A stretch of DNA of 64,000 nt from Permianibacter fluminis. Its GTDB lineage: Bacteria > Pseudomonadota > Gammaproteobacteria > Enterobacterales > Permianibacteraceae. A program made the translations under genes and the position numbers. Location: NCBI RefSeq assembly GCF_013179735.1, contig NZ_JABMEG010000001.1, positions 992,001-1,056,000 of the forward strand, given 5' to 3'. Every line of letters starts with the position of its first letter. Position 1 is the stretch's first letter. A model generated the notes under the pieces. That model was given only the letters and a program-made list of their open reading frames with translations, had not been told where the DNA came from and did no database searches. Positions 7,237 through 61,414 of the stretch are shown in pieces.

Positions 7237-7515
7237 TTGCCGTTGCGCGTAGCGTGCCTTTGACTCTGTGGTCCGTTCGACGAGTCGAGCAGCGCAGCGG
7301 AGACCGGGTTAACAGCCCGCAGGGGCGAGGCATGGATGCCGAAGCCTTTTCCGACTGTACAGGGAGGTACTGTCGGAAAAGCCCCGGGTGGAGCGAGCAG
7401 CACAGAGAACCGCTAAAACGTCTTTATCGTTTTAGCGGCGAGGAGCCGGGACATGTTCTTTGGGTACTTTCTTGCGCCAAGAAAGTACCTCGCCCGCCGG
7501 GGCGAAACCCGGCAA
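7237..7515 (+). repeat. Dispersed structured repeat, copy A
   Basis: About 279 bp of a repeat family also seen at 49231-49517 and 51752-51995. Shared landmarks in order: CGACGAG-CGAGCA; a small GGG/CCC hairpin (7306-7318); the block GCCGAAGCCTTTTC; hairpin H1 (7346-7381); hairpin H2 (7410-7438, perfect 11-bp arms); hairpin H3 (7463-7489, 11-bp arms, loop GCGCC); hairpin H4 GCCGGG/CCCGGC (7496-7513). It fills most of the gap between the rpmG 3' end and the EF-G-like gene, both of which read leftwards. No convincing coding content. Confidence 0.85.
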
Positions 7516-45212: not shown

Positions 45213-45444
45213 CGCAGCCGTTTCGCTGGCCGTACCCAGCTTTACCGCGGCAGCCCTGCTATGGCATCGTGGCAGCCAACATCAGAACGAATAAGGCATT
45301 GCGCGGCGCCCGGCTGAAACACCGGGCTTACTCGCACCGGCGCCGGCTCGGCAACCGCAGCGTGTTATCGGTGGCAAGGTCTCAGCACGACGCAAGCAAG
45401 ACGCCAGCGCGACAAAAGCAGCACTACAAAAACAGGGATTTTTT

Positions 45445-47058
45445 GTGGCCAATGATTCCCGCTTCAGCAGTTTCCACTGTGCCACGCCGGCACTGTCCCA
45501 GCTCGAAGACGAGCTGCAGCATCTCTGTCATTACGGTCGCGGTCTGATTCTGGTATTTGGTCCGCCTGGTGCGGGCCGCAGCCACATCGCCAAGCGCTTG
45601 AAAGCGCAAGTTTCCAACACCCTGCCAGTGGCATTGATCCAGGCCCAGCCATTGATGACCAGCGCGCAGATTGATCAAGATGCGCTGCGCCAACTCGGGC
45701 TGACCCAGATCGCCATGATGGAAAGCGATTTGTCGCTGGCCATCGCCCGGGCGCCGGCCGGCCGCCGCACGCTGATCATCGATGATGCCCAGGACCTGAA
45801 CCTGCATGTATTGCGCAGTCTGCTCGAATGCGCCGTCAGCGAGCGGGAGCGTGAAGATCCGCGGCTGACGCTGGTGCTGTTTGGCGACGATATGCTGGAA
45901 ACCGCGCTGGCCGAACTCGATTTTGCCGGCTTGAGTCCGCACGACTTGCACCGTTTGATGCTGCCGGCATTCAGCGTCGATGATGCGCAACGACTGGCGA
46001 CAGTGTGGGCAGCCGCGCAAGGTGAAAACGAGCCGGAACGCAGCGTGGTGCGCGCGGCCTGGCAGCAACAACAAGGTTGGCCTGGTGCCATTCTCACTCA
46101 ATTGGCGGAGCAAGCCGTGACCAACGAACGCGACGAATACCCGGACGATGAGCAAGACGAGTTCAGCAGCGATGTGCGCGAACACAGCGTGGATGACGGC
46201 GAAGAAGCGGCCGGTTTCTGGCAACGGCACAGCTGGTTGAAACTGCCGCTGATCGGCGTTGGCGTGTTCACGCTGGCGCTGGCCTTGATGTATCAGCGCG
46301 AGTTGAACGACTGGATCAAGGGCGGCGACAAGGCCGCGACCAGCGCCAGCAAACCTGCGACCGAGCCGGGTGCCGATCTCGGTGATGCCCGCCGTCAGGA
46401 TCTCGCCATCGACGCTCAACCGGTACCGACCGGCGAGGCGCCGGCCAGCCTCGAAATCATCGAGGAACCGACCGGTGGCGCTGACAGCGTTGACGCTGCC
46501 GGCCGCGGCGATGCTGCGAACGTTGAGGCAAATAACGAAACCGATAGCCAATACGCCGCCAACGCCGGTACCGATAACACGGCGAGCGATGAGTTCGCGC
46601 CGGTCAAGCCAGAAAGCAAGACAACTGAAAGCAAACCGGCCATCAGCAAGCCGGTACCAGAGCCGGTCAAGCCGACGCCGAGCAAACCGGTCGCCGACAA
46701 GCCAGCAGAAAAACCGGTGAGCAAGCCCGTCAACAAGCCGGCCAGCAATAACGACCGCTACAGCGCCGATGAGCAAGCGCTGCTGAATGCCAGTCCCGGC
46801 TACTTTGCGGTGCAGATCATCGGTCTGCGCGATGACGACTCCATGGCCCAGTTTGTTCGTCAGCACAAACTCGATCGCGGTCTGGTCTATCACGGCGTCC
46901 GTGACGGCAAACCTTGGCAAGTGTTGGTGCTGGCGCCCTTCGCCGACCGCGCCGCTGCCGAACGTGCCCGCGATGCGCTGCCGGAAGCCGTGCGCAAAGG
47001 CGGGCCGTGGATCAAGACCATCAAGGCCATTCAGGACGAGATCAAGGCCAAACGCTGA
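45445..47058 (+). CDS. damX: DamX-like protein: AAA-type domain, membrane segment, SPOR domain
   Basis: 537 aa from GTG 45445 (AGGGA upstream). N-terminal ATPase-like domain with a degenerate Walker A (FGPPGAGRSHI, Arg instead of Lys) and RTLIIDDAQDLN as Walker B. Acidic linker, one membrane segment near 270-288 (LPLIGVGVFTLALALMY), a long Pro/Lys/Ser-rich periplasmic stretch, and a C-terminal SPOR domain (YFAVQIIGLRDDDSMAQFVRQH) that binds denuded septal glycan. Family role: division-site protein. Between aroB and hemE, as usual. Confidence 0.88.
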   Translation: MANDSRFSSFHCATPALSQLEDELQHLCHYGRGLILVFGPPGAGRSHIAKRLKAQVSNTLPVALIQAQPLMTSAQIDQDALRQLGLTQIAMMESDLSLAIARAPAGRRTLIIDDAQDLNLHVLRSLLECAVSEREREDPRLTLVLFGDDMLETALAELDFAGLSPHDLHRLMLPAFSVDDAQRLATVWAAAQGENEPERSVVRAAWQQQQGWPGAILTQLAEQAVTNERDEYPDDEQDEFSSDVREHSVDDGEEAAGFWQRHSWLKLPLIGVGVFTLALALMYQRELNDWIKGGDKAATSASKPATEPGADLGDARRQDLAIDAQPVPTGEAPASLEIIEEPTGGADSVDAAGRGDAANVEANNETDSQYAANAGTDNTASDEFAPVKPESKTTESKPAISKPVPEPVKPTPSKPVADKPAEKPVSKPVNKPASNNDRYSADEQALLNASPGYFAVQIIGLRDDDSMAQFVRQHKLDRGLVYHGVRDGKPWQVLVLAPFADRAAAERARDALPEAVRKGGPWIKTIKAIQDEIKAKR

Positions 47059-48840: not shown

Positions 48841-49045
48841 GGTTTGCCGGGTCTCGCCCCGGCGGGCGACCTTCTTTCTTTGCTCGTGCAAAGAAAGAAG
48901 GCAAAGAAACACGCCCCACGCGCCAGAATCAGATTGGTTGCTTCGGAGACTCCGCCCGTCGCTTCGGCGTTATCGGCTTCGGGCACGTGCTGATGCGGCG
49001 TCCTGCCTTATCAGCACTGCGCTGGCGTCCTTGCCAGCGCACCCG
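48841..49045 (-). repeat. Dispersed structured repeat, diverged inverted copy D
   Basis: On the minus strand the 3' half matches copies A-C: a 14-bp hairpin H3 (CCTTCTTTCTTTGC/GCAAAGAAAGAAGG, 48870-48901) followed by CGCCCGCCGGGGCGAGAC and the GCCGGG/CCCGGC hairpin H4 (48846-48863). Upstream, GGCAGGACGCC is shared, but H1 and H2 are replaced by other hairpins (GTGCTGAT/ATCAGCAC near 48987-49017; TGCGCTGGC/GCCAGCGCA near 49018-49041). Confidence 0.65.
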
Positions 49046-49129
49046 ACCGCTAACGTCGAATCGCCGGCTGGCGCGAATGGGGGCCCCGGGTTCTAGCTGG
49101 GGTTGGTTGCTTCGGCATTGCATCTCAGT

Positions 49130-49212
49130 CTGTCATTCCGGCGAAGGCCGGAATCCATTGTGTTTTCCAAAACCAAATTCAAATTGGATTCCGGCTTTCG
49201 CCGGAATGACAG
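49130..49212. repeat. Long inverted repeat with 28-bp arms (GTCATTCCGGCG type)
   Basis: The arm at 49130-49157 (CTGTCATTCCGGCGAAGGCC and onwards) is repeated inverted at 49185-49212, with one or two mismatches and a 27-base AT-rich spacer. Each arm is itself a short hairpin (CCGGC/GCCGG). The motif belongs to the common GTCATTCCGGCGAAAGCCGGAATCC palindromes of proteobacteria. It lies between copies D and B of the structured repeat. Confidence 0.9.
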
Positions 49213-49230
49213 GTGTGATTTGTTTTTTTT

Positions 49231-49517
49231 TGGCGCGCAGCGTGCCTTTGCCTTTCCCGCCGTCTGACGAGCCGAGCAACGTAATGGAAGCTGGGTTAAT
49301 AGCCCGTAGCGAAGCGAAGGGGCGAGGCAGGACGCCGAAGCCTTTTCAGACTGCACAGGGATGTGCTGTCTGAAAAGCCCCAGCTGGAGTGGAGTAGCGC
49401 AGGGAACCGCTAAAACAGTTTCATCGTTTTAGCGGCGAGGAATACAGGCAATGTTCTTTTGGGTACTTTTCTTGCGCCAAGAAAAGTACCTCGCCCGCCG
49501 GGGCGAGACCCGGCAAT
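49231..49517 (+). repeat. Dispersed structured repeat, copy B
   Basis: 287 bp aligned to copy A at 7237-7515. GGG/CCC hairpin 49293-49305; H1 49342-49377 (TTTTCAGAC with GTCTGAAAA, inner GCAC/GTGC); H2 49407-49435 (CCGCTAAAAC/GTTTTAGCGG); H3 49462-49490 (12-bp arms, loop GCGCC); H4 immediately after. Sits about 135 bp before the aldehyde dehydrogenase gene in the same orientation. Confidence 0.85.
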
Positions 49518-51751: not shown

Positions 51752-51995
51752 TTCCGCCCGTTCGACGAGCCGAGCAGCGGAGTGCAGTTTGGGTTAGTAG
51801 CCCGTAACGCAGTGAAGGGGCGAGGCAGGAAGCCGAAGCCTTTTCTGACTGCACAGGGATGTGCTGTCAGAAAAGCCCCAAACGGAATGAGCAGCGCAGG
51901 GCACCGCGCGTAGCGCGGCTCGGAGCCGGGCATGTTTCTTTGGTGACTTTCTTTCGCAAAGAAAGTCACCCGCCCGCCGGGGCGGGACCCGGCAC
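51752..51995 (+). repeat. Dispersed structured repeat, copy C
   Basis: About 244 bp. GGG/CCC hairpin 51791-51803; H1 51840-51875 (TTTTCTGAC with GTCAGAAAA, inner GCAC/GTGC); H2 51904-51918, a shorter replaced stem CCGCGC/GCGCGG; H3 51942-51970 (13-bp arms GGTGACTTTCTTT/AAAGAAAGTCACC, loop CGC); H4 after it. It separates the Tat protein gene from the GMC oxidoreductase gene. Confidence 0.85.
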
Positions 51996-60844: not shown

Positions 60845-60954
60845 GCGCCGGGCAGGTTGCTGCCGGGGCGCCTGGGTCGTGAGACCGGTCTGGGCCGGGC
60901 CTGGCGGGTGGTTTGACCGGTTGCGGGTTAGTTCCCGGACCGCAAGGATAAACG

Positions 60955-60982
60955 TTGCGTTTGCCGTCGGGATTGGTAGTAT
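60955..60982 (+). promoter_or_regulatory. Candidate promoter of the cold-shock gene
   Basis: TTGCGT (60955-60960) and TAGTAT (60977-60982), spacer 16 bp, giving an untranslated leader of roughly 150 bases, as is usual for cspA-type genes. The rest of 60845-61140 holds no gene. Confidence 0.5.
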
Positions 60983-61140
60983 GCCCGGGCGAGATATTCA
61001 CATCGTGTGTTGCGTGTTCGCGGACACCCTTGCAAATCGGTTTATCGCCTCGTCAGTGTCACCCTGTTGAGTCTCGTAAAAAAGGGGTTTCAGCCCGCAG
61101 GGGCGCCCTGGTTCATTTAATTCTGTGAGAGATGGAAAGC

Positions 61141-61347
61141 ATGGCAACTGGTACTGTGAAGTGGTTTAACGAAACCAAGGGTTTTGGCTTCATTACTCCT
61201 GATGGCGGTGGTGAAGATCTGTTCGCGCACTTCTCGGCGATTCAGGTTCAAGGTTTCAAAGTGCTGCGCGAAGGCCAAAAAGTGTCCTTCGACGTTGTGC
61301 AAGGCCAAAAAGGCAAGCAAGCCTCGAACATCAAGCCGTTGGATTAA
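61141..61347 (+). CDS. Cold-shock-domain protein (CspA family)
   Basis: 68 aa from ATG 61141 (an upstream in-frame ATG at 61132 lacks a ribosome site). [21 protein letters not shown] and [10 protein letters not shown] contain the RNP-1 and RNP-2 RNA-binding motifs. Single-stranded nucleic-acid chaperone. Long leader suggests post-transcriptional control; a terminator follows. Confidence 0.97.
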
Positions 61348-61364
61348 TTCCAGCTGTTGATGTG

Positions 61365-61393
61365 AAAAAACCCGGCACTGCCGGGTTTTTTTT
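61365..61393 (+). terminator. Rho-independent terminator of the cold-shock gene
   Basis: AAAAAACCCGGC/GCCGGGTTTTTT stem with loop ACT, followed by T's; also usable on the minus strand for the convergent AraC gene ending at 61415. Confidence 0.95.
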
Positions 61394-61414
61394 CGCCTGC
61401 GATTCGGCCTTGGA

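Follow-up and report, generated by a model that had tools for sequence, protein, structure and literature searches.

The CsrA-sequestering small RNAs CsrB, RsmX, RsmY and RsmZ display several GGA motifs in hairpin loops, and a genome devotes one or a few genes to them. A less understood member of the same circle is TwoAYGGAY (RF01731), which Rfam places with rsmX and RsmY in clan CL00106 under the label cis-regulatory, whereas in print it is presented as a probable RNA that is probably not cis-regulatory (PMC2864571) and is proposed as a CsrA-binding RNA (PMC4333381). The portions of the literature searched gave no account of TwoAYGGAY as a dispersed or mobile element, and two stem-loop surveys might describe relatives (PMC2267715, PMC1590033). 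The CsrA site obtained by SELEX is RUACARGGAUGU, with ACA and GGA fully conserved, and the selected ligands mostly have four or fewer contiguous pairs, unlike the stems of the element considered here (PMC7652899).

Our analysis concerns a repeat in Permianibacter fluminis that was seen in a window of 64,000 nucleotides (the whole stretch of DNA that was analysed) and followed through the 4.36 Mb genome (five contigs). Its modules share with TwoAYGGAY the plan of two hairpins enclosed by a closing stem, with loops only roughly of the ANGGAY type, and TwoAYGGAY itself is multi-copy and found in inverted pairs in several other genomes; the element nevertheless extends 3' past the Rfam match (hairpin H3 and helices X and Y), and its TwoAYGGAY-like module (type 2) is here paired with another (type 1). 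With CsrB and the Rsm RNAs it shares several GGA motifs in hairpin loops, one of which (H1) fits the SELEX site, but it occurs as tens of dispersed copies and is known here from sequence alone. The REP, BIME and REPIN sequences and the GTAG- and CGTC-tagged palindromes, as described in PMC3733652, are similarly dispersed, intergenic and palindromic, occur as singles and inverted dimers and show complementary stem changes; however, REP-type elements are 20-40 bp, in contrast to modules of 230-255 nt with a multi-branched fold, and neither tag is present in the conserved end where it was inspected. The repeat is real, widespread and non-coding, its copies are dispersed and its multi-branched fold is conserved; its best reading is that of a dispersed, probably mobile element which carries a TwoAYGGAY-like RNA.

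Anatomy and copy number of the element

The sequence-only reading had placed three clear copies and a diverged one in the window; all four are where it put them, and the genome as a whole holds many more copies. Copy A is a single type-1 module on the plus strand (7273..7515; alignment and BLAST, with the type-1 core model R1 matching 7300-7391 at E 1.6e-20), with hairpins H1 (7347..7380, with GGA in the apical loop, ACAGGGAGGT), H2 (7410..7438) and H3 (7463..7489), followed by the overlapping terminal helices X and Y, which constitute the shared end sequence (7490..7513; end-pattern search and covariation). Copy C (51758..51995, plus strand; alignment, R1 core 51785-51885, E 1.5e-28) is also single, and its H1 (51841..51874) has the same loop region, GCACAGGGATGTGC, as the H1 (49343..49376) of copy B (49260..49516, plus strand; alignment, R1 core 49287-49387, E 2e-29). 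Copy B belongs to a composite unit of about 670 bp (48846..49516) that joins it tail-to-tail, with outward 3' ends, to a type-2 module on the minus strand (48846..49072; type-2 alignment), and no target-site duplication was seen at this unit. The type-2 module is what had been read as the diverged copy: it is present, but as a different kind of module and inverted with respect to B. It is matched over the full model length by TwoAYGGAY (48947..49075, minus strand; 38.1 bits against a gathering score of 43, E 2.2e-4). The variants of H1, H2 and H3 listed earlier stand as written, except for H2 of copy B, which measures 10 bp since A faces C at the following position.

Modules measure about 230-255 nt and are found as singles or as inverted pairs with outward 3' ends. 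Along one strand, type 1 consists of a closing stem P1 (for example GTCTGGG/CCCAGAC, AGCTGGG/CCCAGCT or GTTTGGG/CCCAAAC) that encloses P2, P3 and H1, and then H2, H3 and the end. The P2 region holds a small hairpin with a GNA loop (P2a), P3 takes the form GGC-AGGA-GCC or GGCA-TGGA-TGCC, and the apical sequence of H1 is ACANGGATGT in most type-1 copies, being confined within the window to B and C. At the 3' end, YCGCCCGCCGGGGCGRGACCCGGC, helices X (CTCGC/GCGAG) and Y (GCCGGG/CCCGGC) occupy the same stretch and may be alternative folds or a tight pseudoknot. The type-2 module at 48846-49072 (minus strand) follows the plan of type 1 in different letters and has the same end.

Copy A found 39 places in its own genome by BLAST, 21 of them spanning about 230 or more of the 279 bases searched, and the 24-bp end, allowing up to 3 mismatches, occurs 40 times against 0 for a reversed control pattern. 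Together with the fold of copy A (z -5.9; none of 200 shuffles as good), these counts show that the repeat is not due to chance. Type-1 cores number at least 22 by model R1, a lower bound since 24 loci of the genome were searched, while type-2 modules number 14 among the loci examined, and the tail-to-tail arrangement of type 2 with type 1 is repeated at about ten other loci. A strict pattern for the H1 region, run across genome contigs, gave no match.

Several other repeats lie in or beside the copies. A separate palindromic repeat (TGTCATTCCGGCGAAGGCCGGAATCC...) is present at 49131-49215, between the two inverted modules of the composite unit, and similar repeats occupy that position in other composites. 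Rfam matches of miRNA type at 49119-49225 (an unrelated palindrome) and at 48869-48902 (H3 of the type-2 module) fell below their gathering scores and were taken as chance. A further short repeat, with GTAGAGCAAYGCAGGAGCARTTGCCG in it, interrupts elements or composites at three loci (L002, L006 and L011), and the L002 insertion includes a GACAGGGATGTC hairpin. On the right flanks of some copies (e.g., L001, L007, L010 and L011) there is a weakly conserved stretch of about 50 nt ending in GCGGCAA, which in several copies leads to a CCCCC-rich palindromic repeat, so that several repeat types abut. Elsewhere in the window, Rfam matches the cspA thermoregulator (RF01766) at 60950-61394 on the plus strand (80.8 bits, gathering score 78), and a hairpin with the loop CAGGGAT (45426-45446), which may be a leader site of the CsrA type, runs into the beginning of an ORF of 537 codons (45445-47058).

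Covariation of the stems and a possible selected strand

Paired changes between copies had been taken by the sequence-only reading to point to selection on secondary structure, and that conclusion is now well supported. Among 21 type-1 copies of the genome, 97.9% of 1242 cells are paired and two-sided changes are seen at 24 of 62 pairs, giving a covariation score of 0.280 compared with 0.097 +/- 0.007 for shuffled alignments and at most 0.041 when partners are slid. On a tree of 18 of these 21 rows (L002, L004 and L022 left out; 58 pairs), 54 co-changes fall on the same branch where 9.0 +/- 2.5 are expected, and none of 2000 null draws was as high. Two-sided changes also occur in P1, P2a, X and Y, helices that the earlier list did not contain. 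The same behaviour is seen in the same-family genome G002 (13 copies; double changes at 16 of 29 predicted pairs) and in type 2 (21 of the 22 copies from the own genome and the same-genus genome G001, leaving out the insert-bearing L110; double changes at 18 of 50 pairs). Thirteen other genomes contributed 17 copies, which R1 matched and which were aligned by fitting to it; two-sided changes affect 24 of their 30 pairs, and the score is 0.638 compared with 0.163. These values, and the GGA count for the same copies given below, lean upward because R1 found most of the copies, its consensus contains GGA and the alignment was fitted. The type-1 core is well supported as a structured family and escaped the Rfam scans done here, no Rfam model, TwoAYGGAY included, having matched it.

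Whether the structure acts as RNA or as cruciform DNA had been left open, and the mismatches somewhat favour a single selected strand, be it RNA or single-stranded DNA. Read on the GGA strand, the mismatch cells of type 1 comprise 12 G.U and 1 A.C (p 0.003; counts omitting L004 in H3, L022 in P1 to H1 and L002 in X/Y), next to 14 cells with other mismatches, 9 of which lie at the pair that has turned into a GNA loop in short forms of H2. This lean disfavours cruciform DNA as the sole explanation. It is weaker beyond type 1, with 6 G.U to 4 A.C in G002, 19 to 11 in other genomes (5 of the 11 A.C cells being at the closing pair of the GGA loop, and removal of that pair, a post hoc choice, giving 19 to 6), and in type 2 G.U at 7 pair positions and A.C at 4 within a structure taken from a prediction program with a preference for G.U; the strand argument is therefore suggestive only.

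The TwoAYGGAY match, GGA loops and CsrA

The earlier reading knew no name for the repeat, and the TwoAYGGAY match of type 2 answers this in part. One of the four type-2 matches to TwoAYGGAY in the genome reaches the gathering score (C2:465388-465516, 45.7 bits against 43). Type 1 and type 2 are linked by model R1 (best own-genome E 9e-4), by their common ends and by their pairing. In a sample of 369 genomes of the class, TwoAYGGAY was found in 24 (16 above the cut-off, 21 family labels), and R1 matched 11, 10 of them further genomes; the counts per genome are lower bounds for both models, since scoring took in 7 and 11 candidates per genome and the filters were stricter. When R1 was run on 19 of 20 TwoAYGGAY loci, the own-genome L192 being left out, its core was found nearby on the opposite strand in 3 (L197, L195 and L180) and on the TwoAYGGAY module itself in 2 (L197 and L198), and 15 of the 19 gave nothing at E < 0.01. 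An H3-type hairpin follows the core in several of the R1 or TwoAYGGAY genomes, and a covaried X/Y end in some. A blastn search with copy C against 39 relatives besides the own genome matched G001 and G002 only, and only in its 3' part.

Both module types have two hairpins within a closing stem and carry GGA there, with any of the four bases before it and a varying base after it. GGA is present in both hairpins in 21 of 21 type-2 copies (read off the alignment) and in all 17 copies of the 13 other genomes. In H1 of type 1, counted over 20 own-genome copies with L022 left out, ACANGGA occurs in 19, RYACANGGAUGU in 17 and the exact RUACARGGAUGU in 5, and P3 has CGA instead of GGA in 3 of 20 (L006, L011 and L019).

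CsrA has one match each in the own genome, G001 and G002, and is present in 313 of the 369 sampled genomes. It accompanies the modules in 33 of 33 genomes that carry either of them (24 by TwoAYGGAY and 9 more by R1), compared with 280 of the remaining 336 (83%; p 0.003, kinship being ignored in this test). We consider capture of CsrA by the element plausible. The structure would then work as an RNA made from the GGA strand, either by read-through from neighbouring genes or from a promoter of its own, and its paired GGA hairpins may bind CsrA dimers in the manner of the RsmZ and CsrB RNAs, with the copies serving as local or collective decoys. For this RNA and CsrA-decoy reading taken as a whole we regard the chances as even.

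Probable spread of the copies and rival explanations

At the site of copy C, the flanking genes of G001 lie side by side, with an overlap between the stop of the first and the start of the second, and no element separates them, in contrast to a gap of about 460 bp in the own genome; since G001 lacks the insert at this site, copies appear to move or spread. The genes around copy A are not neighbours in G001. No coding mobile element behind the copies showed up in a search of the Y1 transposase family. A RAYT was rejected as the mobiliser, the sole Y1-type gene of the own genome having a different flanking REP: it is a solitary RAYT-like gene (L135, G000:C1:1258730) flanked by GTGGGAGCGGCTTTAGCCGC-type REP sequences. 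The phage collection gave no match to the element, one plasmid record matched part of the end only, and the viral contigs gave one exact match to the end. The shared H3-X/Y end would be the likeliest handle for a spreading agent.

The same end is joined to other bodies in Burkholderiales (Paracidovorax, Ramlibacter, Variovorax, Hydrogenophaga, Rubrivivax and another member of the Burkholderiaceae), which account for 19 of 23 stretches that bear it, the other 4 being contigs of G002. CsrA has no match in any of six Burkholderiales genomes that bear this end, which counts against CsrA capture. GGA lies in 16 of 79 hairpin loops there (14 of 31 elements), compared with 60 of 204 (47 of 64 elements) in the own genome, G001 and G002. 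Three Burkholderiales loci (L073, L077 and L087) have the same H3 and end on other bodies, with loops such as CCGAAGGA, CCGCAGGA and CGAGGA; the genomes of L073 and L087 have no CsrA match.

These observations bear on the possibility that the element is selfish, non-autonomous DNA of a REP/BIME- or MITE-like kind, in which the folded strand is a transposition substrate, the GGA loops serve as DNA contacts for protein and no RNA role exists; the stems would then covary since some single-strand transposase depends on their shape. An end joined to other bodies in genomes that lack CsrA is in keeping with this, as are the inverted pairs and singles, the outer end common to 40 copies, and the failure to find target-site duplications, there being no consistent direct repeat in 27 end pairs, contrary to what a MITE with target-site duplication would show (matches of 4-5 letters are of chance size, and some pairs are not true partners). 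Eight H2 loops of the own genome are, moreover, GNA closed by C-G, a loop that is very stable in DNA. However, the Y1 search of the own genome led only to the RAYT-like gene with its different REP, and a mechanism that concerns the ends only leaves GGA in both inner hairpins of the distant copies (a partly model-biased count) unexplained. We consider selfish DNA a real possibility, though one that will rather more probably prove wrong.

Two further alternatives are less probable. A cis-acting UTR structure for the neighbouring genes (an RNA stabiliser, terminator or attenuator) would suit window copies that sit between long likely genes, and X and Y, by sharing bases, look switch-like; yet copy A lies on the opposite strand to both of its neighbours while B and C match theirs, orientations to genes are mixed in 23 own-genome copies (from a crude look at long ORFs), no T run follows the last hairpin in the aligned copies and GGA loops would not be needed, so we think this unlikely. 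If stems were instead kept perfect by mutation, through template switching in quasi-palindromes, the many perfect stems that change in blocks, such as H2 and H3, would fit, but the covariation of P1, which pairs bases about 90 nt apart across intervening hairpins, that of both overlapping helices X and Y, the conservation of the GGA loops and the lean of type-1 mismatches to G.U on one strand all argue against it, and we regard it as very improbable.

The preferred reading, that of a dispersed and probably mobile element with a TwoAYGGAY-like RNA, connects dispersed intergenic repeats with an Rfam family that has lacked an explanation, and opens both to tests. That a mobile repeat found across many gammaproteobacterial families brings with it a CsrA-binding RNA module, so that the number of decoys per genome shifts by transposition, is a broader proposal which we put forward tentatively, in the expectation that it may well fail. 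Were the element a mobile CsrA decoy, TwoAYGGAY would be one of the two modules of a mobile element and not a cis-regulator. If CsrA does not bind, the element would be a folded DNA repeat of unusual size, mobilised by some as yet unrecognised system; if it does bind, mobile repeats would tune a global regulator by their copy number.
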